64,000 nucleotides of DNA, from contig CAXKVR010000091.1 of NCBI GenBank assembly GCA_964058845.1, forward strand, positions 1 to 64,000. Reading direction: 5' to 3'. Below the pieces are notes generated by a model, which was not told the DNA's origin, made no database searches, and worked only from the letters and a program-made list of their open reading frames with translations. Below are positions 23,455 through 55,569 of this stretch, one piece after another. The number at the start of each line of letters is the position of its first letter. The stretch's first letter is position 1. This DNA is from Carex sylvatica. Its lineage: Eukaryota; Streptophyta; Magnoliopsida; Poales; Cyperaceae. Position numbers and translations under genes: made by a program.

Positions 23455-23526
23455 GCCCTCATCGTCTAGTGGTTAGGACATCTCTCTTTCAAGGAGGCAG
23501 CGGGGATTCGATTTCCCCTGGGGGTA
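23455..23526 (+). tRNA. trnE-UUC: plastid-type trnE-UUC copy
   Basis: The cloverleaf is recognisable: acceptor GCCCTCA against TGGGGGT, anticodon loop around CTTTCAA (TTC), and T arm GGGGATTCGATTTCCCC. Compared with the usual plastid gene it is one base shorter in the D loop (GGTTAGGA rather than GGTTCAGGA) and has a G-T wobble in the acceptor stem. The 3' CCA is not encoded, as expected for plastid tRNA. Confidence 0.9.
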
Positions 23527-23637
23527 AGATAAAAAGTTGATATTAATTTCTCAATAAACCTAAGATTCATTCTCCCAGGTTTACTAAGAAACCTGGGATT
23601 AATTCTTCCTTAAACCTAGAATTAATCCTTCCACCCA

Positions 23638-23721
23638 GGGTCGATGCCCGAGCGGTTAATGGGGACGGACTGTAAATTCGTTGACGATATGTCTACGCTG
23701 GTTCAAATCCAGCTCGGCCCA
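23638..23721 (+). tRNA. trnY-GUA: plastid-type trnY-GUA copy
   Basis: An 84-nt class II tRNA starts GGGTCGATGCCCGAGCGG and ends CAGCTCGGCCCA, with anticodon GTA in GGACTGTAAATTC and a long variable arm. The order trnE-trnY-trnD is the conserved plastid cluster. Confidence 0.92.
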
Positions 23722-24093
23722 ATAAAGTTACTTTATGAATACATATGTTATATATAAATGATATAATAGAATTGCCTGAAATATTTGAAATTTTTTTTTT
23801 GAAATAAAAGGTCAAACCATTCATTAAATTAATGGGAAGACTTCATGTATTTATATGCATATAAAATATGAATTCTCATTAATTTTTATTTTGAAGTACT
23901 AAGAGTAAAGTCTACTCCTCTTACAGATAAAAAATCTGTTATTGAGTAAAACAATAACAGATTACTAGTAATCTGTGTCACTCTCACTATAGTCTATATC
24001 CATATGTGAATATGTTTTGAACATTTGTACAGCTGAATGGGATGATACTCATATTACCCTTATGAATATGTATACCAAACACCTTGCTTTGCT

Positions 24094-24167
24094 GGGATTG
24101 TAGTTCAATTGGTCAGAGCACCGCCCTGTCAAGGCGGAAGCTGCGGGTTCGAGTCCCGTCAGTCCCG
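24094..24167 (+). tRNA. trnD-GUC: plastid-type trnD-GUC copy
   Basis: A 74-nt tRNA starts GGGATTGTAGTTCAATTGG and ends GTCAGTCCCG, with anticodon GTC in the loop of CCGCCCTGTCAAGGCGG. All stems look intact. Confidence 0.93.
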
Positions 24168-24804
24168 AACTAGAATCCGGAATATTCATCCATTTTTATT
24201 TCCTTTTTCCACGAAAAAGGGAGGCAGAAAACAAACAAGATCTAAATTCTCATAATTATTGAAATGATTTATTTTTGGACTAAATATCTCTTTTGTTTTC
24301 GTTTTGCATTTATCACCCAGACAAATATTGATCAGAAATCTCATTTTTTTTTTACTACTATCTATTGATTGATAAGGTAGAGATTTCTTATATATTGATT
24401 CGTAGAATCAATAGTATTCATTTATATACCATCGACCCTCATCGTACTTTTTTTTCGACTGTTCTTGATCAATGAAATGATAGTATTTTATATATTATAT
24501 AATATATATAAGTTTTATTTTTTTTCTAAAAATTTGATAAAAATAAAAAGTTTTATTCTTTGTATAATTACCTTAACAAAAAAAGTAGTTTTCATATTAA
24601 ACTACATCTCTTTTAGTCACGATTTTTTTTGTATTGATTGTATATGGTTAATATTCTCATTCAAATACAAATAACAGACTTAATTTGAAATTTATAGATT
24701 TCATTCCAAATCCGAAAAAGGAGAGACTTACTAAAATAAAAGAGAGGAGCCGTGGTGGTCCCCCCCGGACCGCCCGGATCCCACGAGTGAATAGAAAGTT
24801 TAAT
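24168..24804. other. plastid-like intergenic spacer
   Basis: This is AT-rich sequence with stacked poly(T) runs and no gene. Near 24750-24790 a GC-rich segment (GGACCGCCCGGATCCCACGA) resembles plastid inverted-repeat spacer sequence. Confidence 0.5.
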
Positions 24805-37460: not shown

Positions 37461-40400
37461 TTAGGGATTATTGCCAGTGGGAACTTCAATCCATTCTCCT
37501 TCATTGTGATCGTTGCGCGTGTGACTTGTTTTGTTATCCTCACCGGTTAGTAAAGATGCCATGCCAGTGGAAAACGGTGGTATCTCATCAAAATGATCGT
37601 ACGCTTCTTCGTCTTCCACATTATCAATCCCGATGATACGTCTTTTACCAGAGAGAACAACATGTCTTGAACGATCGGCCGGATCAGTAACGTAGAACAC
37701 TTGCGTGGCTTGTCTTGCAAGTATAAATGGATCGTCCTTGTATCCAGCCTTACTGAAATCCACTAGAATAAAACCATCTTCGTCGACTTTAACCCCCCTA
37801 CGGTTATCGACCCATTTACACATAAATAACGGAATGTTAAATTTTCTATAATCTACCTCCCAAATTTCTTCAACAAATCCGTAATATGACATTGATGCAT
37901 GCGATGGTCCGGCACCTTTAGGATCTGACAAATCACTAGAAACGGCTACTAACGTCACTCCACTGTTTTGCACGGTACTCTTTGAATCTTGATTTCTTGT
38001 GTAAAATGTGTACCCGTTGATGTCATATCCTTGGAAGGTCCTCACGACGTGGACTGGACCAAGAGCCAACAATTTCACAGTTTCTGTAATATTTTCTCCC
38101 TCTGGAGCTTGCACGACTCTCCGTGTAAACCATCCCTCAAACTTTTTATTGTGTTCGCTGATTAACCACTTGTTGGATTTCTCAGGATTCTGTTGCCGCA
38201 AGAGAGTCATATGCTCGTCCCAAAAAGGATGAACGTCAGTGAGGTGTTGTAAAACATGAAAATGTGCTAGTGACATCATTGTACTATCGGGCTCGAATAA
38301 TTTCGCACCGATTGTGCCTACCCCATGAAGTCGACCCTCGTGCCGAGATTTAGGGATGCCTATAGCTTTGACATCATCCATATAATTAGTACAAAACTCA
38401 ATAACCTCTTCGGCAGCATAAGCTTTTACGATGCTTCCCTCAGGCCGATATCGATTCCTGACATATGCCTTTAACAATCCCATGTATCTCTCGAACGGAT
38501 ACATGTACCGCAAGAAAACAGGTCCGCACATCTTAATTTCTCTAATTAGGTGAACAATTAAATGAACCATGATATCAAAAAAAGACGGCGGAAAATACAT
38601 TTCAAGATGACAAAGAGTGACAACAACCTCCTTCTGCATAGCATCTAGCATATCGGGATCACTTACTTTGCAACATATGGCATTAAAGAAAAAACAAAGC
38701 TTCGTGATGGTCTGCCTAACACACTTTGGCAATATGCCCCGAATTGCAACAGGAAGAAGCTATGTCATTAAAACATGACAGTCATGAGACTTCATTCCTG
38801 TCAATTTTAAATCTTCCAGTGAAACTAGGTTTTTAATATTCGAAGAATATCCAGATGGAACTTTGACACCATGAAGACATTCCAATAAGCTTTTTTTCTC
38901 TGCTTTCGACAGCGTATGCATTGCAGGTTTTAGATACGTACAAAATTTCCCATTTTCTCTTTCCTTCTCTGCTGGTTGTAGATCCGACCGTATGTTCAGG
39001 AATTGCATGTCTTTCCGAGCATTGATACCATCCTTAGTCTTACCCGGAATATTCAATAAAGTTCCAACAAGGCTATCACACACATTTTTAACCACATGCA
39101 TCACATCGAGACAATGTCGAACATCTAAGTGCTGCCAGTATGGTAAATCCCAGAATATTGACCTCTTCTTCCAACTAATTTTCGGTGCCCCTTTCTTTCT
39201 CACCACCTTCTTTTTAAATTTCCCAAATTGAACTTTGATATCCTTCACTCGCGAATAAACAGCTTTACCGGTCAACGGATAATTTACTCTGGTATTCTCG
39301 GTCTTTCCATTGAATTCTTTCTTTCTCTTTCGGTGTGCATGGTTGGCAGGAAGAAATCTACGATGACCCATGTACACATTTTTAGAGGAATTAGGTAGCC
39401 ACACATCGACTGTATCGTCTAGGCAAACAGGGCATGCTTTCTTTCCTTTGACACTATAACCCGACAAATTTCCATAAGCCGGAAAATCATTAATGGTGCA
39501 GAAAATCATGGCCCGTAAAGTGAATTTCTCCTTGCTGTATGCATCAAATATCTGCACTCCGGGTTGCCATAATTCTTTTAAATCATCGATCAATGGTGCT
39601 AGATACACATCTATGTCGTTCCCGGGCTGTTTGGGTCCTGATATGAGCAAGGTCAACATGATGTATTTGCGTTTCATACATAACCAAGGCGGAAGATTAT
39701 AAATGCACAATAAAACCGGCCAACTGCTGTGCTTGCTGCTCATGCTACTGTGCGAATTTATTCCATCTGCACTCAGCCCAAGCTTAAGATTTCTAGGGTC
39801 ACATCCGAATTCGGGGAACTCTCTGTCAATATTTCTCCACTGAGGAGAATCAGCGGGGTGCCGTAATTTCCCGTCTTTTTTTCGGTTATCTGCATGCCAA
39901 CGCACTAATTTTGCATCTTTAGCATTTGAGAACAAACGTTTCAATCTCGGTTTCACAGGGAGGTACCACAATGCTTTTGCCGGAGGCCCTTTATTCGGTT
40001 TGTAATCATCACTTTTATCGCCGGTTAACTGCTTTGGTTTGTAACGTGATGCTCCACATTTTGGACACTCGTGAAGATCTTTATACTCGGATCGATATAA
40101 TATACAATCATTTGGACACGCATGTATTCTTTGAACTTCCAAATCCACTGGGCACAATATTTTCTTCGCTTCATAAACATTTGGTGGTATCTCGTTTCCA
40201 TCCGGAAGTATTTCTTTTAAAGTTTGTAATAACCCAGTAAAACTTTTATCACTCCAACCGTTAGATGCTTTAAGGTTATACAATTTTAATACACCTTTCA
40301 ATTTTGAAAATTTAGAACAACCAGGGTACAATTCTTTATTAGAATCTTCGTACAAATTCTCAAATAAACAATACTGCTTATCATTATCAAAATCATCTTC

Positions 40401-40835
40401 TAAATCACGTAACATTTGATCAAAATTATCACATTTATCTACCACCATATCATCATTTTCTTCGGTATGGTATTCCTGATCCTCAGTACGAGCACCTATA
40501 TCGGTTTTCAATCCCCGTAGATCATTCCCGTCGTTTCCACCGGTATGGTATTTCTGATGCTCAGTACCAGTACCTATGTCGGTTGGCAAACTCTCACCGT
40601 GCCATAACCAACACTTATATCCTTGCTTGAATCCACGACGGATTAAATGGTTCCTCACTTGGTTCGGGTTGGAGAATTTTTGACCATTGTTACAATCACG
40701 GCAAGGACACGACATCAGTGCACTCCCCTTATTCGCCATATCTTCCGTAGCAACTCTGATAAATTCCTCGACACCTGTCATATATTCATCAGACAGACGT
40801 GATACTTCGTACATCCAACTGCGGTCCATCTGCAA
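37461..40835 (-). pseudogene. TNP2-type CACTA transposase, one internal stop
   Basis: The frame opens at 40835 with the transposase-associated domain (MDRSWMYEVSRLSDEY, CPCRDCNN, HLIRRGF). The TNP2/Transposase_21 core follows (CPNDCILYRSEY, CPKCGASRYK, GLSADGINSHSSMSS, GYSVKGKKACPVC, HCLDVMHVVKNV). Then comes MKSHDCHVLMT, a TAG at 38760-38762 where relatives have Gln (LMTQLLPVAIRG), and continuation without a frame change into DUF4218 (NAICCKVSD, YPFERYMGLLK) and DUF4216 (YYGFVEEIWEVDY, FMCKWVDN) to the stop at 37461. Total length is about 1,120 codons. It acts in the nucleus to excise and reinsert the element. The stop is the only defect I see, and a CAG to TAG change explains it. Confidence 0.92.
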
Positions 40836-40924
40836 TTATAATAAAACACAATTAATTAAGAACATGGTTGGAGAGCTTAGTTCTGTTCACAATATGGCTT
40901 ACTTGGGGCCGGGTTACCATCCTA

Positions 40925-41130
40925 TCCCACTCTCTGAATACTTTGTCTCAGTAGTGGCCGCATGTTAGTCGTGTTTTAGCATTTAAGAAAATTTCGGCAG
41001 CATTTCCCCTTAGTTCCCCGAGATTCGGGAAACTAAGTGGAAATGCTGCCGAAATTTTCTTAAATGCTAAAACACGACTAACTTGTGGCCACATCCTAAA
41101 TGAGACAAAGTATTCAGAGAGCAGTCCCAA
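40925..41130. repeat. long hairpin upstream of the transposase start
   Basis: Arms of about 95 bp (40930-41024 and 41031-41125) containing TTAAGAAAATTTCGGCAGCA and CTGAATACTTTGTCTCA pair around CCCCGAGATTCGGG. It lies 100-290 bp upstream of the transposase start codon, in the likely 5' UTR or promoter. A smaller hairpin (ATTAATCC/GGATTAAT) follows at 41143-41177. Confidence 0.85.
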
Positions 41131-41177
41131 AACGGGGACTATTCAAAATTAATCCCTAATGGATTAATTTTGAACGG

Positions 41178-42029
41178 GTATCATGACCTAAAGGCATTAA
41201 TAATGCGGTTGTGGCTCATAAGACAGTACTCTAGCTACATATCTAGCTAATATAAATACATCTCTTACAAAAAAAAAATACATTAATTAATGCACAAAAA
41301 TGATTAAACATGAAACTTCTAGGTTGTACTTACAACTTTTTTGGATGACGGATCGAGTGAGATGAAAATATATCGCTGCACCAAATATCTCAATAATAGC
41401 CAATCTACAAAATTAAACCATCGATCGTTAAGAGATGTACATAACATGCATGTTATATATCCTACAACTTGAAATGAAAAAAATGCTCATATAGCATATA
41501 TATATAGCATATATATAGAAAATCTTGAAATAAGAAGAGATATTCAAACTTATAAAGAAAAACTCCACATATAAAGAATAACTCATATGTAGCTCATATA
41601 TTAGCTCATATATATAGCATATATGCATATATATATATGCATGTGCATCCAAGTCTCCACATATAAAAAAAAACTTGAAATGAAAAGATGCTAGGTATTC
41701 AAACTTATAATTAAAAGCTTGTGGAACCAACAAAAGAGCTGAATCAAGGCTATAAGGTTTAGATTTTGAGCGGGCCGGATCATAACTCACTTCTCATATA
41801 TATATAGGATTTAGGGTTTAGGGTTTGAACCGAATTAATTATAAAGCTAATAAATGGTGCTCTACTAGTAATAACAAACTTGAGAAAAGAGATGATCAAA
41901 TGTACCTCAGAAAAGAGAGGTGAGATAGCTGAAGTAATGTAGGGCGAAATAGCTGCTGCGCTAATTAAGAGAGGCGATAGAGGAAGAGAAACGAGATTCT
42001 GACAATAATGGAACTGAATTAACTTTTCA
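41178..42029. other. CACTA 5' non-coding part
   Basis: AT-rich sequence with TATATAGCATATATA-type repeats (41480-41660) and no gene. It is probably the leader and promoter of the transposase gene. Confidence 0.5.
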
Positions 42030-42474
42030 TATGCACTATTAGGATCGGTTGTTTATTAAAAAAACCGATCCTGATACTATCAGGATCGATTTTTATAAGC
42101 AACCGATCCAGATACTATTAGGATCGGTTCTTTGTAAACAACTGATCCTGATAGTTAACTATCTGGATCGGTTTGTTACAAAGAACCGATCCTGATAGTA
42201 TCTGGATCGGTTCTTTGTAAACAACTGATCCTGATAGTTAACTATCAGGATCGATTGTTTATAAAAACCGATCCTGATAGTATCTGGATCGGTTCTTTGT
42301 AAACAACTGATCCTGATAGTTAACTATCAGGATCGGTTGTTTACAAAGAACCGATCCTAATATACTATTAGGATCGGTTTTGTTCAAAGAACCGATCCAG
42401 ATAGATATTAGTATCGGTTGTTTCATATAACCGATCCTGATAGGCCGATCCTGATTCCTGTTTTTCCACTAGTG
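42030..42474. repeat. CACTA subterminal array, right side
   Basis: Around ten alternating GGATCGGTT/AACCGATCC motifs in a 60-80 bp rhythm (GTTCTTTGTAAACAACTGAT recurs) end at the CACTAGTG terminus. The solo end at 19870-20103 is a diverged relative of the last 230 bp. Confidence 0.9.
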
Positions 42475-42819
42475 ATAAACACTCTTTCACTGCCAGAAAC
42501 TATGTCATGCTGGCTGAATCACCTAATCGTCGTTTGTATTATGATAAAAATGATGATATTGTTGTCCGGAACAAAAAAAAAAAAGACATTGTAGAACCAA
42601 ATGAAAGATTATTAACATCTTTAATCACGGATTCATATTTCTCTATTTCAGCATAGTTGATACTTAATACTCTATTTAATCAATGAATATGACGAGTTTT
42701 CAGCATGTGCATAGTTTATACTCTATTTAATCAATCACGGGTTCAAATTTTTAGACAAATAATGACCATAATCGGACCAAAATAGCAGAAATTGGACGAA
42801 AAACAGAAAATCCGTGAGT

Positions 42820-42935
42820 ATCGGCGTATTGGCTCAGTATCGGATCGGTGTTGGCCGATATTGATGTGTATCGGCCGTTCCGAATCGGTATCGGCCGATA
42901 ATTCCTATTATGGCCAGTATATTGTACCCACAATG
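42820..42935. repeat. TCGGCCGATA-rich block, right of CACTA
   Basis: Contains TATCGGCCGATAATTCCTA and several CGGCCGATA repeats; inverted relative to the block at 33880. Confidence 0.65.
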
Positions 42936-44122
42936 CACGAGTTCAAAATTAAAATTAAAATACCAATGATTATTTGTTCACCCTATATTTTGCTTCTGTA
43001 GTGCGTAGAGTGCTCATTTGTACAATATTGCTCAGAACATTAAATGAATGTATCACAAAAAATGTGACGTTATAAATAATTAACACTTGGTCTTCTCACA
43101 ACCACAAATTAATTGGTTTATTGCTCTCCAGTTCTCACAACCACAAATGCTCTCAGACATTCAACAATCATCAATTACGTTGATGATTTGATAACCCCAA
43201 GTTATGTGTTTAAATTAGAATGAAGTGAAAATTTAGACGTACGTACGTATCAAACAATAAATAAAAAATTGAAATTAAATTAAGAATTCCTTTGAGCTAA
43301 AACAAATAAAATTAGTAAACAAAAAAGCATGGAGTAATAAAGAATCTAAATTTAAAAAACGTTTTGTAACCTAGTAATATATAGATTGAAAAATGCAACT
43401 ATAATTTGCGGTATCTAATTTTATATACTCTTTACAATAGAATATCCATATTTATGGAAGCATGGTGTGAAATGATGCACGGCCTGTACTGTTAATTAAT
43501 TTTAAATTTAGACTTGTGGATGTGAATTAATAATAACCATATCCATATCCCGACTCCCACATCTCGTTCTCTTTTCTATTTCTCTGATTCTCTTGCCTCA
43601 ATCCCCCCCTACTCTCGCGTCGAGCCCTAAAGCATACCGTGTCGGAAAAACTCAACTAGACAAGTGTCTCCCCCCCTCTCTCTTTCTTTCTCTATTCGAA
43701 AGTTTCACAAAAGTTGTGATGTGGTAGTGAGAGGAGCTTGAACTTTCAACCTTTGAGTATATCCAGCAGTCCTACATTTTTTATTCTAGCAAACTATGCT
43801 ACCAGCTCATTCTCCTCTCTCTCTCTCATAATTGAAGCTATGTTGTTTGGTATTAGTGCACTTTGATTGAGGGTTAATTTAGCCTAATATGGTGGTCTGG
43901 TTGCATAAACATTGTTAATCATAATTTAGATTATTATTCCACCGGCACTACTTGAGTGGTTCGGGCCAAATCCAAGTTTGAGTTTTTTATAAGTACTATT
44001 GGACTGGACAAAGCTTGCAGCTAAAGCCTGCCCATTAGCAGCCCTATCTTGTATGCATTGTGACCCTAGCCCAAACCCTAAAAAAAACAAAATTCAAAAA
44101 CCCCGTTTAATACTAACTACAC
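42936..44122. other. upstream region of F-box paralogue 3
   Basis: Pyrimidine-rich tracts (CCCCCCTCTCTCTTTC near 43670; CTCCTCTCTCTCTCTC near 43810) and the shared family block GGTTAATTTAGCCTAATATG (about 43870) lie here. A promoter or 5' UTR is likely within it. No other gene is seen. Confidence 0.5.
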
Positions 44123-45079
44123 TTGTTTTCTTCTTCCAAAATTCAGATGGCCCAGCAAAAGACTAAAAACTCTACCAATGATGAGAGAAATTGGTCTGAA
44201 CTTCCACAAGACATTCTCCATCTCTTCTCCAAAAAGCTACCAGATATCTCTGATTTCATACATTTACGTGCTGTGTGCAAGAGCTGGCAGTTATCAATCC
44301 CAGTCACTGATCCTCCACCACAACTCCCATGGCTCCTAGAGCGCCGTCAAGACGGTGAAAATCCCATTATACGCTTCTTCTGCCTCTCATCTGGTAAAGT
44401 TCAAACTATTGCTTGTCCAAGTTCTTGTCGTGTCAGGCTCTATGGCCCCGGAGGTCGCTATTTACTTGCCTATCATGTGGGAAATTATGAGAGGTATCTC
44501 CTTAATCCTCTTACTAGTGATCAAATCCATGTCCCGGATGGGTTCCTCCCCGAAAATATTGGTCTAGATAAAATTAATGGCGGCGATGTTGTCGTTGTGT
44601 CAAGAAATACCAATATGATGGGTTTTTGGCAACCTGAGGCTGATGATTGGGTCTATGTAGAAGGGGTCGGCAATTGGTATAGTGGTAATGCATATTATAT
44701 GGGACAATACTTTAGTCACGACAAATATACTGGCATTACAAATGTTATTGATATTGCAACAAAAAAAATGGCTTATCAAGTCGCACTGCCAGAGGGCACA
44801 AACACACTTCTAAAGGGTCGCACAGTTATAATGGAGTCAGGAGGAAAGATCCTCAGATTGTTCCATCATTCCAAGACAGGGACATGCCACTTTGATATTT
44901 ATTGTCTTCATTTCAGTGATGGAGAAAGGATACCTTGTTGGGTGAAAATTACCAATATCGGTGACCAGATGTTGTTTCTTCAATATCATCGTGGGTTATC
45001 TGTCTGTGCAAGTAACTTTCCTGGATTTGAAGGAAATTGCATTTACTTCCTGAAAAAGGGGCGATATCTTTGTAGATAC

Positions 45080-45427
45080 TGTTGGAAATTTCTGAAGGAT
45101 ACAACAATAGAGAGAACAAATTTGCTGCTGAAATTTAACTTCTATTGCTTCCTTAATTCGGATACAAAGTACATCTAAATTTATAGCTAAACATTAATCT
45201 AAATTTAGAACATCTAAATTTAGCACCCCCACTACCTATCCTTCTATTACAAGCAATCCCCAAAATAGAATTATTCCCCACGTATCCTGCTATTACAAAC
45301 AAAACCTACATGACTAATTATAGAACCCACTAACTCAACTACATGCCTAAAAATACATCACAACACGTTGCATCCAGATCTCTAAATCTGAAATATTCGG
45401 ATTCTAATTTTGTATCAATATTCAACA
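45080..45427 (-). repeat. Copia 3' LTR
   Basis: This is the left LTR in window coordinates, 348 bp with the 15-bp duplication. It also supplies the last 33 codons and stop of the read-through F-box frame. Confidence 0.93.
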
Positions 45428-47514
45428 CTCCCCCTTGATACAAAATTGCCAACTCCATGTGCCGATCGAAATTGTTCAAATTTGCTTTGTGCCAATGCCT
45501 TCGTAAGCACATCTGCTACCTGCTTGTCTGAATTGACATATCTGATCTCAACGTCACCATTTGTCACAAGGTCACGAATGAGATGAACACTTATGTCAAT
45601 ATGCTTGGTCCTTTCATAAACTTCTGGATTTTGCGCCATTGCTATTGCTGATTGGTTGTCACAGAATATCACTGTAGGCTGTTGTTGTTCCTGCTCAAAA
45701 TCAGCAAGTATACGCCTCAACGAAACTGCTTGACAAGCCGCTGAACTGACTGCTGAATATTTTGCCTCAGAGGTTGACAACGCCACAGTTGCTTTCTTCT
45801 TTGAACTTTCACCAACCTTGACAATTACCTTCTCTTGCTTGATAACAGTATCTTCTGTGATCACCTTTTTCAAAATATCTCCCTTAATACTTTTCATCTC
45901 CAGAAAACCTCTTCCATTTTCAAAGGAATCAGACACTTGACTTGGCATGTCACCTCCTCTTTCCATGATTACCTCTGCTTGGGTTAACAGGTCTGGAGTC
46001 AATCCACTGCCATCTAGTGCTGGAATTCTTACTTCTCTCTTCTTATCAATATTCCTTCCTTTTTCAAACTCTTCTTTTTCTTTGACTACATGATCTTCCT
46101 CCTCTGTGATTGTAGGCTCTTGCTCAGGATTGACTTCTACAATATGTATTCTCATCAAGAAAAGTCTCTTTTCTTCTTTCTCTGCCACCTTATGTACAGG
46201 CTGGTCGAAACATGATTCTGTCATCCTCAGCACTTGTGTATCAGTAATGGTAACCAGATCCCCATCAGAATCCTTGTACTTGATCAGCACAGATTTTAAT
46301 GAAGGAAAACTCTTCGTCACAATATCTCTCAACACCTTGAAACTACATTTTTCTGGCATTTGAGCCAGCCATATATCATGGTTGTACACCAGCTTCAACG
46401 ACCTCTGACGATTGAGCCCTAGATTCTCCACCTTGAGGGCTTTTTCATCAAACAAAATATTTCTACTCACCATGATTTTGCCACTTCCTGGACTGCTGCC
46501 ACCATTTTCTTTTGTATACACTCCTACTGTGCTCTTGCTGCTTGCATCAATCTTGTCAATTGCGCTGCTGGCCATGAAGAGAGTTGGTTGCGCATCCTCC
46601 TCTTCTGTATAATTTGCTTGACTCTCTTCTCTTTGCTTCTTCTTGTAGCAATCAGCCTGCACATGGCCGATTTTGTGACAATAATAGCACTCCACGTCTT
46701 GACCTTCTTCTCTCTGTTTCTTGTAGCAATTGGCTTGCATATGCCCTCTCTTGTGACAGTAGTAGCATTCTACATCTTTCTTCGGTTGATTAGAGAGCGG
46801 TTGACTGTAACTTAGATTGCCTCTGCCTCTGTCGCCTTGACTGCTTCGACCTCTGCTGTTACCTTGGCCTCTACCTCTGCCTGTGTTGCCTCTTGTGAGG
46901 AAAGACTTAGAATCGTCCTTCTCTTCAGATCTGAGAAGTCGTACTTCATGGACTTGTAGCGAACCCATCAACTCGTCGAAAGAGTATGTGGATAGGTCCT
47001 TGGACTCTTCGATTGCTGCCACGACATGGTCGAATTTTGAGGTAAGGCTGCGGAGTACCTTCATAACCACGATCTTTTCTGTGATATCTTCGCCACAACT
47101 CTTGATTTGGTTGATGGTGGATGTGACTCTTGTGAGAAATGTTTGAACAGATTCGCCTTGATTCATGTCCAACGTCTCAAACTCTCTTCTCAAGCCTTGT
47201 AGCCTTATCTCGCGAACTTTTGAATTTCCCTGGAATGCAGTTTTCAGGGTTGTCCATGCAACCTTTGCTGATGCCGCTGCTGCGATTTTTGTGAATACCA
47301 TGTCAACAACGGCTTGTTGAATGAAGAACAACGCCTTCGCATCTCGCTTCGCTGTTTCTGCTGGTGTGGGATCTATGCCTGGTGCTCCCGTCTCCACCAA
47401 TTCCCATAGACCTTGCGACTTGAGCAAAGTTCGTATCTTGATGCTCCAGAACTCATAGTTGTCTCCCTTGAACAGCGGAATCGATGGATTCGAAATGCTC
47501 ATGTTCTCTGCCAT
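45415..47514 (-). CDS. fused gag-PB1-RNase H ORF of Copia element, 699 codons
   Basis: The ATG at 47514 lies about 40 bp after the primer site. Residues 1-200 are Copia gag (SIPLFKGDNYEFWSIKIRTL; LQGLRREFETL). Residues 249-262 and 275-288 are two CCHC zinc knuckles (CYYCHKRGHMQANC, CYYCHKIGHVQADC), the second a tandem duplicate. Residues about 371-467 are a PB1 domain (SLKLVYNHDIWLAQMPEKCS, LIKYKDSDGDLVTITD, RIHIVEVNPEQEP). Residues about 470-570 are an acidic or charged linker, and 573-699 the C-terminal part of Copia RNase H (ATVALSTSEAKYSAVSSAAC, FCDNQSAIAMAQNP, KHIDISVHLIRDLV, VADVLTKAL). The PB1 part closely resembles the plant TPR-PB1 proteins (Phox/CLMP1 type), where PB1 is followed by a VSPEQEP-like sequence. 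The frame is fully open. The RNase H lacks its N-terminal half. It could be translated as one product. Confidence 0.88.
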   Translation of the reverse strand: MAENMSISNPSIPLFKGDNYEFWSIKIRTLLKSQGLWELVETGAPGIDPTPAETAKRDAKALFFIQQAVVDMVFTKIAAAASAKVAWTTLKTAFQGNSKVREIRLQGLRREFETLDMNQGESVQTFLTRVTSTINQIKSCGEDITEKIVVMKVLRSLTSKFDHVVAAIEESKDLSTYSFDELMGSLQVHEVRLLRSEEKDDSKSFLTRGNTGRGRGQGNSRGRSSQGDRGRGNLSYSQPLSNQPKKDVECYYCHKRGHMQANCYKKQREEGQDVECYYCHKIGHVQADCYKKKQREESQANYTEEEDAQPTLFMASSAIDKIDASSKSTVGVYTKENGGSSPGSGKIMVSRNILFDEKALKVENLGLNRQRSLKLVYNHDIWLAQMPEKCSFKVLRDIVTKSFPSLKSVLIKYKDSDGDLVTITDTQVLRMTESCFDQPVHKVAEKEEKRLFLMRIHIVEVNPEQEPTITEEEDHVVKEKEEFEKGRNIDKKREVRIPALDGSGLTPDLLTQAEVIMERGGDMPSQVSDSFENGRGFLEMKSIKGDILKKVITEDTVIKQEKVIVKVGESSKKKATVALSTSEAKYSAVSSAACQAVSLRRILADFEQEQQQPTVIFCDNQSAIAMAQNPEVYERTKHIDISVHLIRDLVTNGDVEIRYVNSDKQVADVLTKALAQSKFEQFRSAHGVGNFVSRGSVEY
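46114..46404 (-). other. captured host PB1-domain segment within Copia ORF
   Basis: Encodes residues about 371-467 of the fused ORF, with the conserved KYKDSDGDLVTITD acidic OPCA-type motif and the basic lysine in SLKLVYN. PB1 domains mediate protein-protein oligomerisation. It is not part of normal Copia proteins. The captured piece may be larger (about 45800-46520), since its flanks also do not look like Copia. Confidence 0.8.
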
Positions 47515-47541
47515 GGTAGGATCTGCCCTGATCTCAAACCT

Positions 47542-47559
47542 TTGGCTCTGATACCAATT
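47542..47559 (-). promoter_or_regulatory. Copia primer binding site (tRNA-iMet)
   Basis: The complement reads TGGTATCAGAGCCAAAGG, next to the end of the 5' LTR (47560). TGGTATCAGAGC is complementary to the 3' end of plant initiator Met-tRNA. Confidence 0.92.
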
Positions 47560-47892
47560 TGTTGGAAATTTCTGAAGGATACAACAATAGAGAGAACAAA
47601 TTTGCTGCTGAAATTTAACTTCTATTGCTTCCTTAATTCGGATACAAAGTACATCTAAATTTATAGCTAAACATTAATCTAAATTTAGCACCCCCACTAC
47701 CTATCCTCCTATTACAAGCAATCCCTAAAATAGAATTATTCCCCACGTATCCTGCTATTACAAACAAAACCTACATGACTAATTATAGAACCCACTAACT
47801 CAACTACATGCCTAAAAATACATCACAACACGTTGCATCCAGATCTCTAAATCTGAAATATTCGGATTCTAATTTTGTATCAATATTCAACA
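47560..47892 (-). repeat. Copia 5' LTR
   Basis: 333 bp; differs from the other LTR by two substitutions and lacks the 15-bp duplication. Confidence 0.93.
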
Positions 47893-47978
47893 AATACGAC
47901 ATAGGGGATGGTACAACTGAAGTGTTGCGTTGCCCTTTTGATTCAGTCGGGACTTGGTTTGTTCCTAGTCTTGTATAA

Positions 47979-50246
47979 CTCTCTGATATCAATTATGTAT
48001 TAACAACCATGTAAGTTTAATTGAGTATTAATTTAGCTTTTTGTTTAATTAGATATATATTTAGTTCAGTTGGTCTTATTTGACTACCTTCTTAAATCCG
48101 TCAGTGATAATTGCTTGTTCAAAGTAATTTTCGTATTACAAATTTACCTACCTGTTTTCACTTATGTTGGTTTCAGGTAGTTAAAAGTTAAGACTAGATT
48201 GAGGTGCATTCCCACATATATATTAAGCTATAAGATCACTCCAATATAGGTCGTTTCTTCTGTCAATTGGGTTAATATTATTTTATCTTTGAGTGAAATT
48301 TGTTAGGATTTAGTTTTATTATATCTTATATTCTAATATGGTGAAATTTGTTATCTTGTAATCATTCACCATGTGGGGTTCTTATTTCCAATTTGTATAT
48401 CTAAATTATGACCTTGATATGTTGTATGATCGGCTATGATTTATGAATATGTAGTCTGGCAGTAATTACTAATTTAAGATTTTTTTTAACTTTATCAGTT
48501 TGTTTGTGATTTTGTATTTTCTTATTTTAGTTTATCGTTTAATTTCTTTGTCGATAAATGTAGAATGGTTCATATATTCATATTATACAATGAGATGAGG
48601 TTGTCTACTTGTCTGCTTCAGTATTTGTTATATGAGCTTGACAGTTTCATAGTTGATTTGTGTTTGGAAACAACGACAGTATTTTGTTTGGCTTGAAGTT
48701 AGAACTCATTTAAGTTAAAATTTAAGGAAGAATTTAATATAGAATTGGAATTTTTTTCTGACAGTTCTTTAATGGTGTCTAATTCTTTTGGCACTGAGAT
48801 TTCTCCTGGAGCTGAAATTTGCCATTTTTTTCTTTTTTGTTAAATTCAGTATTTCCAATGAAACGAGTGAAAAGAAGTCAGAATAAATCATGAATGACAA
48901 TACTCCTTACAGATCAATTGAAGATGCAACGGCATTTTGGTCATTTATTAATCTGGTCAATTGTAATGAATTTTGTTATGTTATTTTTTTATTTTATTTT
49001 TTGGCTATGATGATTTATTCAGGGTTGGAACTGAATCTGTAATTGTGTTGTAGTGCCATTTGTAACTACACGATTATATGAGCAAATTTGACTTTTATTT
49101 TTGTTGTGTCTATTTACCTGTATTCTATTTGTTACTAAGTTCATATATAGTGCCTACTGCCTAATGGTTTTGTATTTAATGGCAGGTCGGTGGTGCTCTC
49201 TCTCCTAGTATTAGGCTTTTGTAAAGACCTTGTATGTTATCAATTGGTAGTGCATTACCTAGCTAATTGATATGGGATTTTGTCTAGACTGTTAGGTGTG
49301 TGCCAGTTTTGCAATTGTTATAACTGAACAGCTAGTTGGCACTTACAATTCGTCTAGTTTGCATTTAATTATAAGTTCAGCAGGTTTATGTTGGTATAGT
49401 ATAAGTTTCCACAAACTGACAATCATGATGCAAAAGATGACCATTCTACTTGCAGCAAAGTTAATTGTATGAGCACCGTCTATACTAATTGCAACAACAA
49501 TTATATAAATAATACATAAGAGGTTCATGGAAAAATGAGTATTCATAAAATTATTAGCTCAAAAGCTGAACTTTGTTTGAAAAAAAAAAAACAGACTGAA
49601 TCGGCCATGGAAAGGAAATGAGACTGTATTCAGTACAGTACATGCAGGATGCGAAAAGCAAGTTTGTCTGGCCTTGCTTGCAAATAAGTAGGAGAACAAA
49701 TTGGCCTGTAGGACACTTTCAACACAAATCTCTTAGAAAATTCAAATTTATTCAATTTATCAACAATTAAACATTATGTATGATTTCTACAACCATTTGT
49801 TTTCTTTTGAATTGTGAGGGCATGTTTTGGGCTCTCTCATCCTTATATTACGCTATTTACATAACCATATATACAATAACGAAATACAAAGATTAAATAA
49901 AAATAAACAAAAAATTCTGAAGAAGACAGAACTTCAAATCAGTGTTATCAGAACTGGACCGGACCGACGGTTTAACCGAAAAAACCGGACCCAGATGTTT
50001 GGTTCATTTTAAAGACCGATTGTGCTGCTGAACTGATAAAATCCGGTTTAATAGACCTGTTTTAAAAAAAAAAGCCATTCGGTTTTAAAGAAAAAACACT
50101 TTATTAAACGGTTCAAAGTTAAATATTATGCATTAAATGCGACATAGTACCAAATGAAAGGACAAGTAGACCTGTATTCTTCTAAAAAAAAAGGACTAGT
50201 TGGCCTGTACTGTACACAAGTATATTGTTGTGGCATAGGTTTAAAC
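47979..50246. other. 3' flank of F-box paralogue 3 and spacer
   Basis: The 48310-48450 part matches the 3' flank of paralogue 2. Past that I see AT-rich sequence without genes. At 49940-50110 there are ACCGGACC/GGTTTAACCG-type motifs (GAACTGGACCGGACCGACGG) that look like a degraded transposon end. Confidence 0.55.
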
Positions 50247-53424: not shown

Positions 53425-55569
53425 TTAATGCCTTCGTCGTTGCCTTGGTCTAAGGGCGTCACTCCCGGGAGTGTACGGATCAGTAGAATTCCTTATATGG
53501 CCTGCTGGAAGAGGTGGATCTGAAGTAGATGGAGCGTAATTTGCATTGAATGGTCCCAGATCTGCAGATGATGGTCCCATTGTACTAATGCCTCCCATTA
53601 ATTCATCGATCATGAACTGAGATATAGATCCAGACTCTGTGCCTCTCATGAAGTTGTCCCACGTCTAGGGAGGCTCTGTAGTTGCAGGGCGATTATAATG
53701 CTGATCAGGGAAATCATCATCCAAACTGATCATGTCCAAGTCCATAGGAATTCCAGCACTATCGAGTATGCCTCGCAAGATGTGAATCTGATCAATATCC
53801 TCCATAATGTCACGAGGCATGCTCGAACATCATCTTGCCATATGTCACTTGTCCCGGGGTCTTGACCATGTCTATTGCCTGCATAGTGCATTGTATCTCT
53901 CGAGCAATCTACATAACACATTTTGAAGCATGACATATTGCACATTAATATTGAAAAATCTAGTTTGATTGAAAAAAAAAAGTAATGTACGAACCACACG
54001 GGAATGCCTATGACCATAAGGAACGTATGCCAGTGTAGCAACATCTCCTATCCGCGGGAGAGCCTGACGTCGTAGAGCTTTCAGATTGTTATCTGATAGA
54101 TACACTGATCTCATACCATGCATGTGGAACCAATGCATGTACAGATGATGCCTCGACATATCATATGGTCTCCGCTCTCCAATTAATACTGCAGGTTTCT
54201 CGAAGAGCTCACAAAGAGTCATCGCCCAACAACCATCCCTTGTTGAATTTCCATCATGATACCATGTATTTCGTAAATAACTAATATCATCCCATGGTAG
54301 AGGAGGAGGAGGTGGGACCTCTTGGTACTTACCAAACTGGCGCATGACCCTATCTGCATGCTGAAACTCCACCATCTAAAAATGGATCACGTAACTGCAG
54401 CTCATCCAATACCTCTTTTGTCGTCGGACATGTCGAGGTAAATGATCATAATAATCAAAGTATGGTTGCTAGTTAAATGCCTCATCAGCTAGTCTATCGA
54501 AGCTATCTCTATATGCGGCTGTACCACCTGTCAAAAAAAAATATAAATATAAATATAAATTTTAAAAAACAATTATAAATCTATCGAAGTTATCTCAAAT
54601 TATAAATCTTTTTACCTAAGTGAGAGTTTTCTGGCCACAAATGGAGAGTGGTCCACTTCACATTGAAAATATTCCTCTCATTCTCATCGGCACCACCGAA
54701 GAGAGGTGGCTCTTCCCGGGGTATAGACCGACCAATAGAAAATCGAATCCATGACCAAATCTATAACAACAACATCAGACCCGCTATTGTATCTACTCCC
54801 GCGTGGCAAGCATGTGACAACTCTCGATAGAGATGTGCGAGTACTGCACCTCTCCAATTGTATTCTCGTGGAGTCTCTAGATCAGTGATGAATTATAAGT
54901 ACATCGCAGGGACTCCATCCGCACTCGAATCTGGAAACATAACTGACCCAAATAAATCCATACAAAAATCTCAGGTGTACCGTGCGACTGTCTCATCATC
55001 GTGAAATTGTTGTAATGGATCATTAAATTGTCTTCGCACCCATCTCAGTCTAAGTGCATAAGCAGAGACGGACAATCGTTCTTCCGGTGTCCCAGGATGA
55101 TAAATCCTATATTTATATGGCATTATCTGATGGAGGTGATCGTAAAAACTAACCGGGTCAACTCCTAGATCATACTCTAAGTATGGGTCCCAATCAGTAT
55201 CGCTGGTGCCAGAAATTGGGTCGCTTGCAAATTAAAAGAATTATACAATCAATAATTTATTTTTTATAGATAGTTAATTAAATTAACAGATAAACTACTA
55301 TGAGATTATTAATTACCCTTAATCGGTAAGCCCCATAGACATGCGACATCTTCCAACGTCACTGTCACCTCACCGACAGGTAGATGAAATGTATTAGTCT
55401 CTGGCCTCCACCTTTCAACCAGAGCAGTAATCAAATGCGGATCAATCTTGCAATCATTAAGGCGAGCAATTTGATACAACACTAACCTCTTCAGAGCATC
55501 GTCCATCAGACTGTTATAAGCAATACTAGTCTGATGTACATTCACCTTCAATGAAGAGGTATGCTGCAA
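53425..55569 (-). pseudogene. plant mobile domain (MAIN-like, aminotransferase-like PMD) pseudogene
   Basis: On the minus strand: MQHTSSLKVNVHQ, ALVERWRPETNTFHLPVGEV and VTLEDVACLWGLPIKGN (55569-55309, start of the PMD), then YDLGVDPVSFYDH, ETPREYNWRGAVLAHLYREL and ENERNIFNVKWTTLHLW, next HLYMHWFHMHGMRSVYL, DVATLAYVPYGHRHSR, and a Pro/Ser-rich C-terminus ending RPRQRRRH at 53425. Internal stops occur at ARYT*DF, MYL*FITD, AFN*QPY and EPP*TWD. Apparent GT/AG introns lie between blocks. PMD proteins include MAIN/MAIL1 nuclear factors and many copies carried by Mutator-like transposons; the adjacent MULE tail fits the latter. Confidence 0.8.

Follow-up and report, generated by a model that had tools for sequence, protein, structure and literature searches.

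Bs1 of maize is the best-known plant long terminal repeat (LTR) element in which several host gene fragments are fused to gag. Two reports describe Bs1 as a short non-autonomous LTR element that joins gag and three host fragments in one chimeric gene, and report its product as translated (PMC13317346, PMC8616336). One of these also describes MUG7 and MUG8 (MUSTANG B), transposase-derived proteins with a PB1 domain whose presence is attributed to gene capture (PMC8616336). Here we examine a Copia-type LTR element of Carex sylvatica in which gag is followed, within one open reading frame (ORF), by a PB1 fragment and by the tail of a plant mobile domain (PMD) protein. The element lies in a stretch of 64,000 nucleotides (assembly GCA_964058845.1, contig CAXKVR010000091.1, positions 1 to 64,000, forward strand), referred to below as the window.

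Like Bs1 as described there, the Carex element carries gag and several transduced host fragments in sense orientation within a single chimeric frame. It differs from that description in the fragments themselves (PB1 and a PMD-protein tail), in its many young copies, in its presence in two Carex species, in having candidate helpers, and in that its ORF is a predicted one only. It shares with MUG7 and MUG8 the joining of PB1 to a transposon-derived protein, whereas these two belong to a DNA transposon (MULE) lineage that turned into a host gene, not to a mobile LTR element. The PB1 segment and the VEVNPEQEP stretch that follows it are also found in the CLMP1/Phox TPR-PB1 proteins. In these the TPR repeats lie N-terminal to PB1, as in Carex littledalei protein P0003, whereas Pfam detected none in the element ORF, which therefore contains a fragment of a CLMP1/Phox protein and is not a member of the family. 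No paper joining a PB1 domain and a retrotransposon gag was found in the open-licence literature, which is weak evidence of absence; nor, judging by titles and the first lines of abstracts in that literature, was a relevant paper found on CLMP1 and retrotransposons or on capture by Copia elements in Carex.

The element is real and not an artefact. It is of the same kind as Bs1 and has two donors, a large set of young copies and candidate helpers. We consider it, with a probability of roughly 0.76, to be a recombining, Bs1-like non-autonomous transducing Copia element whose captured parts are in-frame passengers that evolve close to neutrality. What was observed directly is the anatomy of the ORF, the matches to two plant proteins, the missing enzyme motifs, a multi-copy family with recent insertions, a constrained gag beside a relaxed captured part, and discordant trees. 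Two donors, many young copies, occurrence in two Carex lineages and candidate helpers mark this element among Bs1-like cases, and they make it possible to ask in numbers if such a domain serves the element or is simply carried along. The answer here leans to carried; if wider sampling reversed it, the element would be a clear case of a transposon using a stolen assembly domain.

Anatomy of the chimeric reading frame

The ORF runs from ATG to stop on the minus strand and encodes 699 aa. The sequence-only reading, made from the letters of this stretch, had described gag, two zinc knuckles, PB1 and an RNase H end in it, and each of these was recovered. The parts of the ORF, with window coordinates, are as follows.

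45415-47514, minus strand: chimeric 699-codon ORF, coordinates including the stop (ORF listing)
46924-47433, minus strand: gag domain, residues 28-197 (Pfam PF14223 Retrotran_gag_2, E 1.2e-31)
46648-46767, minus strand: pair of CCHC zinc knuckles, residues 250-289 (the autonomous relative L070 has one knuckle, here duplicated in tandem)
46498-46530, minus strand: remnant of the Copia protease region, residues 329-339 (38-bp blastn match to L070)
46438-46494, minus strand: scrap of the integrase C-terminal (SH3-like) part, residues 341-359 (aligns to L070 up to residue 737)
46045-46437, minus strand: captured CLMP1-type fragment with PB1 and acidic stretch, residues 360 to about 490, 3' edge soft (match to Carex littledalei P0003)
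46210-46404, minus strand: PB1 profile match, residues 371-435 (PF00564, 38.7 bits, cut-off 23.6, E 9.8e-10)
45808-46020, minus strand: second captured fragment, PMD-protein tail, residues about 499-569 (Carex rostrata P0122, 72% over 78 aa)
45418-45807, minus strand: RNase H C-terminal piece, residues 570-699, without DSDWA (66% over 132 aa to L070)

The two knuckles start at residues 250 and 276, and Pfam also gave zinc-knuckle-type matches. The stretch SQANYTEEEDxQPTLFMASS, which leads from the knuckles to the protease start, is kept relative to L070. The integrase-end scrap (SPGSGKIMVSRNILFDEKA) corresponds to the end of the SH3_retrovirus domain, which occupies residues 669-739 in L070. 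The ORF rejoins L070 at SSKKxATVAL within RNase H, and the RNase H-type motifs SSKK, CDN and KHID lie at residues 570, 618 and 637. The position of the reverse transcriptase is occupied by the two plant fragments. The DSG, YVDD and DSDWA motifs of L070, which we take to be catalytic (with DSDWA carrying the first RNase H catalytic Asp), were not found in the window ORF.

The ORF is enclosed by a 2,813-bp Copia-type LTR element, with the following structure.

45080-47892, minus strand: whole non-autonomous Copia LTR element, 2,813 bp (LTR pair, TG...CA ends, primer-binding site, polypurine tract, target duplication)
47560-47892, minus strand: 5' LTR, 333 bp (2 substitutions and 1 gap relative to the 3' LTR)
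45080-45427, minus strand: 3' LTR, 348 bp (LTR pair comparison)
47544-47556, minus strand: primer-binding site TGGTATCAGAGCC (identical in the autonomous relatives L070 and L071)
45428-45436, minus strand: polypurine tract AAGGGGGAG (identical in L070 and L071)
45075-45079, no strand: left copy of the target-site duplication, GATAC (matches the right copy at 4/5 bases)
47893-47897, no strand: right copy of the target-site duplication, AATAC (matches the left copy at 4/5 bases)

The primer-binding site TGGTATCAGAGCC is presumably of the initiator-tRNA-Met type. Of the traits of Ty1/Copia elements, the LTR pair with TG...CA ends, the target duplication (4/5 bases) and the Copia-type gag were present, whereas the protease, integrase, reverse transcriptase and RNase H order was not. 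The enzyme domains are reduced to scraps and an RNase H tail, and the window element is therefore a non-autonomous derivative.

Two donors of the captured fragments

Protein and profile matches show that the element has captured, in frame behind gag, a host PB1 domain belonging to the TPR-PB1/CLMP1 family. The lack of a PB1 hit for residues 371-467 would have refuted this; Pfam placed PB1 at 371-435, well above its cut-off, and residues 358-469 were 78% identical over 112 aa to the Carex littledalei TPR-PB1 (CLMP1-type) protein P0003. The CLMP1-type likeness covers the PB1 segment and the VEVNPEQEP stretch after it. Both the capture and a donor resembling TPR-PB1 (Phox/CLMP1) proteins had been proposed in the sequence-only reading, and both hold. 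A sequence search of the PDB returned five weak matches, all PB1-type by name (best E 0.24), and an AlphaFold2 model of the fragment was poor, with a mean pLDDT of 50.

The region behind PB1 had been described as an acidic linker. An acidic stretch is indeed present, and an in-frame deletion in it is common to the window copy and copy C208, but the supposed linker also hides the second capture, the PMD-protein tail at about residues 499-569. About residues 490-498 separate it from the first fragment. The match to this tail falls outside the PMD domain of Carex rostrata P0122 (residues 116-466), a protein that may belong to a host gene or may itself derive from a transposon. The second donor rules out a single capture. 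Neither the CLMP1-type nor the PMD donor gene was found in the 64 Mb of genome sequence searched, which may be incomplete. A weak PMD-like stretch lies elsewhere in the window (55309-55449, minus strand; 53% over 47 aa to P0122, with one stop).

Copies in Carex sylvatica and Carex rostrata

Further copies of the fusion, which the sequence-only reading had proposed to look for, were found in the Carex sylvatica genome, and a counterpart in Carex rostrata. The arrangement is not confined to the window copy. In the 64 Mb searched, the PB1 profile gave 21 matches, all above the cut-off, of which 18 lay in element copies and three elsewhere. DNA and protein searches recovered additional pieces of the element, and all copy counts are lower bounds. 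Gag and the whole of PB1 share one open frame in 10/18 copies; in eight of the 18 this frame also includes the PMD tail. Two identical 3,255-bp loci (L033 and L034; G000:C194 and C510) carry another gag, a protease piece, knuckles and a truncated PB1, and represent either another recombinant form or a single locus assembled twice.

Carex rostrata LOC144546091 carries gag, knuckles, PB1 and PMD tail in the same order, and the junction sequences FDEKALKVEN and GRNIDKKREVRIPA are common to it and the window element. Its end differs, with a longer PMD piece and the RNase H tail missing. The identical junctions make one capture history, already in place before the two element lineages diverged, the simplest reading. 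LOC144546091 was the only gag-PB1 protein among the matches listed (120 of 198 for the PB1 region and 120 of 152 for the gag region). Two public Carex rostrata gene models, P0121 and P0001, contain element sequence: one is LOC144546091, the fused ORF, and in the other, annotated as "cysteine-rich receptor-like kinase 44", the first 119 residues are 97% identical to the PMD-tail part of the element.

Selection on gag and on the captured codons

Ratios of nonsynonymous to synonymous divergence (dN/dS, omega) were estimated, region by region, from copies in which one unbroken piece spanned 90% or more of the region, which left, of the 18 copies, 13 for gag, 14 for the knuckles, 16 for PB1, 16 for the PMD tail and 12 for RNase H. 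Knuckle values, with a synonymous divergence of 0.95, were judged unreliable and do not enter the argument. By codon maximum likelihood (ML), gag had an omega of 0.28, far below 1 (p 8e-22), the mark of strong purifying selection. The captured codons did not differ from neutrality: the PB1 segment had an omega of 0.86 (p 0.47) and the PB1 core one of 0.71 (p 0.16), while the PMD tail stood at 1.01 (p 0.97) and PB1 and PMD tail taken together at 0.79 (p 0.18). Neither the PB1 core (p 8e-5) nor the captured part as a whole (p 2e-9) was compatible with a gag-like omega of 0.279.

Counts of variable sites, taken from 18 copies (17 for RNase H), some of them partial, agreed with these estimates. 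Among synonymous and missense variants in gag, 130/247 were synonymous, with a neutral expectation of 0.28. In the PB1 core the count was 21/59 (neutral expectation 0.31), and variants confined to a single copy fell at the expectation (11/36 synonymous). The synonymous share differed between gag and the PB1 core (p 0.02) and between gag and the captured part (31/92; p 0.002).

The sequence-only reading had called the retention of the frame over the inserted codons striking. PB1 cores differed between copies by a mean p-distance of only 0.033 (3.3%), and at this low divergence stops should be few in any case. One stop was seen in PB1 core plus PMD tail against about 2.5 expected (1.0, 0.7, 0.4 and 0.4 summed), and none of the four comparisons was significant; this count excludes the acidic stretch and stops downstream of frameshifts. 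Stops in the wider region were seen in C29, C91b, C254 and one piece of C373. PB1 core and PMD tail together showed four distinct indels, none of them a multiple of three, compared with 4/10 in gag; indels of the acidic stretch, which is incomplete in 15/18 copies, were excluded. Since the test for rare stops was not significant and the site counts were neutral, the frame can have stayed open without any selection acting on the captured codons, and the view that its retention is striking is not supported. Selection keeping PB1 in frame is not supported, given codon ML values of 0.71-0.86 that do not differ from 1 and concordant site counts.

Probable exchange of parts between copies

In the gag tree the window copy grouped with C233a and C233b, and in the tree of the captured part with C29 and C208. 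Gag rejected the C29/C208 grouping (approximately unbiased test, AU, 2e-10). Rejection of the C233a/C233b grouping by the captured part was weak (AU 0.043; Shimodaira-Hasegawa test 0.058). Synonymous divergence was 0.20 in gag and 0.26 in RNase H, with 0.066 in PB1 and 0.05 in the PMD tail between them. Read most simply, these sequence comparisons point to a captured module that is younger than the parts on either side of it and that has been joined to more than one version of gag and of RNase H. Such recombination among gag and RNase H versions would take place during reverse transcription.

Recent insertion and candidate helpers

Nine copies had both LTRs in the retrieved stretch and could be dated. 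Their LTR pairs differed by 0-9 substitutions in 332-347 sites. LTRs accumulate about 1.3e-8 substitutions per site per year; at this rate, insertion ages range from 0 to about 1 million years. Exact 5-bp target duplications flank eight of the nine, the window copy matching at 4/5 bases. Pooled LTR pairs differed at 24/3,094 sites (0.8%), and comparison with the 3.3% between PB1 cores suggests that about a quarter of the PB1 divergence arose after insertion and the remainder during replication of the family.

Two autonomous relatives, L070 and L071, have 1,350-aa frames, 100% identical LTR pairs and 5-bp target duplications. They resemble the element in the start of gag, the core of the primer-binding site, the polypurine tract, the LTR ends and the end of RNase H. 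They differ in having full protease-region, integrase and reverse transcriptase domains (in L070 together with gag), a single zinc knuckle and no PB1. Their gag is 18-22% diverged from that of the element, so they are candidate helpers and not proven ones. A third relative without PB1 (C199, L072) has a 381-bp terminal repeat pair, 96.6% identical, and a gag closer to that of the element (84.5% over 950 aligned positions). The element is probably mobilised in trans by autonomous relatives, as these shared sequence features suggest.

Two copies of the element (L007 and L008, G000:C60) adjoin similar ORFs, MEEQLKKARDNY... and MHKLTEKSDVYS..., the latter kinase-like. Their target duplications differ (CTAAT and GTTAC), indicating two separate insertions near paralogous kinase genes. 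In L006 (26-1585; G000:C939) a resistance-type frame with winged-helix and leucine-rich repeat parts runs into an element LTR; the LTR pair of this copy is identical, which points to a recent insertion into a resistance-type gene.

Proposed origin and alternative explanations

In the reading that we prefer, a full Copia element would have undergone internal deletions and picked up pieces of two plant genes, one for a TPR-PB1 protein of the CLMP1 type and one for a PMD protein, presumably from RNA through template switching. The two plant pieces would have replaced the reverse transcriptase while the frame was retained behind gag. The RNA of the element would be packaged by gag and then copied and integrated by the enzymes of an autonomous relative. 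Because gag evolves under constraint, the gag used is probably the element's own, although exchange with autonomous elements may account for part of the constraint. The tail made up of PB1, PMD and RNase H pieces would be carried as a passenger with no role in the life cycle, perhaps cut off by the putative protease of the relative, since the stretch between knuckles and protease start is kept. The sequence-only reading, sound on the PB1 capture and the further copies, had missed both the second fragment and the autonomous relatives.

Several results weigh against captured parts that are passengers moved by L070-like helpers. The RNase H scrap had an omega of 0.56 (codon ML, p 0.0016), a constraint that may stem from exchange with autonomous elements. 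By the NG86 method, omega of PB1 was 0.41 (range 0.22-0.83), below 1; we prefer codon ML because it allows for transition bias (kappa 5-6) and because the site counts agree with it. Older, shared PB1 variants leaned towards synonymous (10/23; expected 0.31, p 0.14), and the ML profile of the PB1 core dropped by less than 1.92 log units for omega 0.45-1.0, reaching 2.23 at 1.2. The gag set moreover spans older divergence than the PB1 set, and the mix of replicating and post-insertion branches differs between the two. For these reasons PB1 may be under weak constraint. The same captures have also persisted in two Carex element lineages. Finally, gag differs by about 20% between the element and its nearest dated autonomous relatives, so that, on sequence grounds, the actual helper stays a candidate.

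The alternative that survives best is that the element uses the captured PB1, as a head-to-tail assembly surface on gag particles or as a packaging aid, and that selection keeps it. The sequence-only reading had likewise raised a functional PB1, able to add an oligomerisation module to gag particles. PB1 scores above the Pfam cut-off in 18 copies, Carex rostrata has the same fusion, and the NG86 value points the same way. The first-strand lysine (LKLVY) and the acidic DSDGD, functional motifs of PB1, are intact in the window copy and, with few exceptions, across the 16 aligned copies. The codon ML estimates near neutrality, the rejection of gag-like constraint and the neutral share of synonymous single-copy variants argue against such use, and some residues that are near-invariant among aligned CLMP1 proteins are altered in element copies. 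With gag at 0.28 against 0.71-0.86 for PB1 and 1.0 for the PMD tail, the idea of a functional PB1 found no support in the codon ML estimates, and we regard it as unlikely. It is similarly doubtful that this Copia family uses a host PB1, for particle assembly or for contact with host PB1 proteins, and that this aided its spread in Carex while gag was exchanged.

Less probable still is an action on the host, in which the fusion would titrate CLMP1-type PB1 proteins or its RNA would give rise to small RNAs against the CLMP1 or PMD gene. Many copies do hold host fragments in sense orientation, and gene-capturing elements are discussed as sources of small RNAs in one review (PMC8616336). The donor genes were, however, not found in the 64 Mb searched, the PB1 core differs from Carex littledalei CLMP1 at 18-25 of 112 residues in most aligned copies, limiting pairing, and the captured part is without detectable constraint; we consider such an action improbable. 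Any influence on the assembly of particles or on the CLMP1 of the host is conjecture. A last alternative, that the ORF belongs to the host as a domesticated gag fusion, as the NCBI annotation of its Carex rostrata counterpart as gene LOC144546091 might suggest, is contradicted by the LTR pairs, target duplications, primer-binding site, polypurine tract and dispersed young copies, and by an insertion that splits another gene.

Insertion site and other features of the window

The gene split by the element is an F-box/KIB1-4 gene on the opposite strand.

44147-45079 and 47898-47978 (span 44147-47978), plus strand: host F-box/KIB1-4 gene split by the element (frame of the empty site; Pfam KIB1-4 and F-box-like)

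With the element removed, the frame continues for 26 codons past the insertion site and then reaches a stop. A search of 40000-50000 against Rfam gave no match. Units of about 41 bp, alternately direct and inverted with the core GATCGGTT, lie at 42030-42443, where long hairpins are possible. Genes for tRNA-Glu(ttc), tRNA-Tyr(gta) and tRNA-Asp(gtc) are consecutive at 23455-24168, an order that resembles plastid trnE-trnY-trnD and perhaps represents nuclear plastid DNA.

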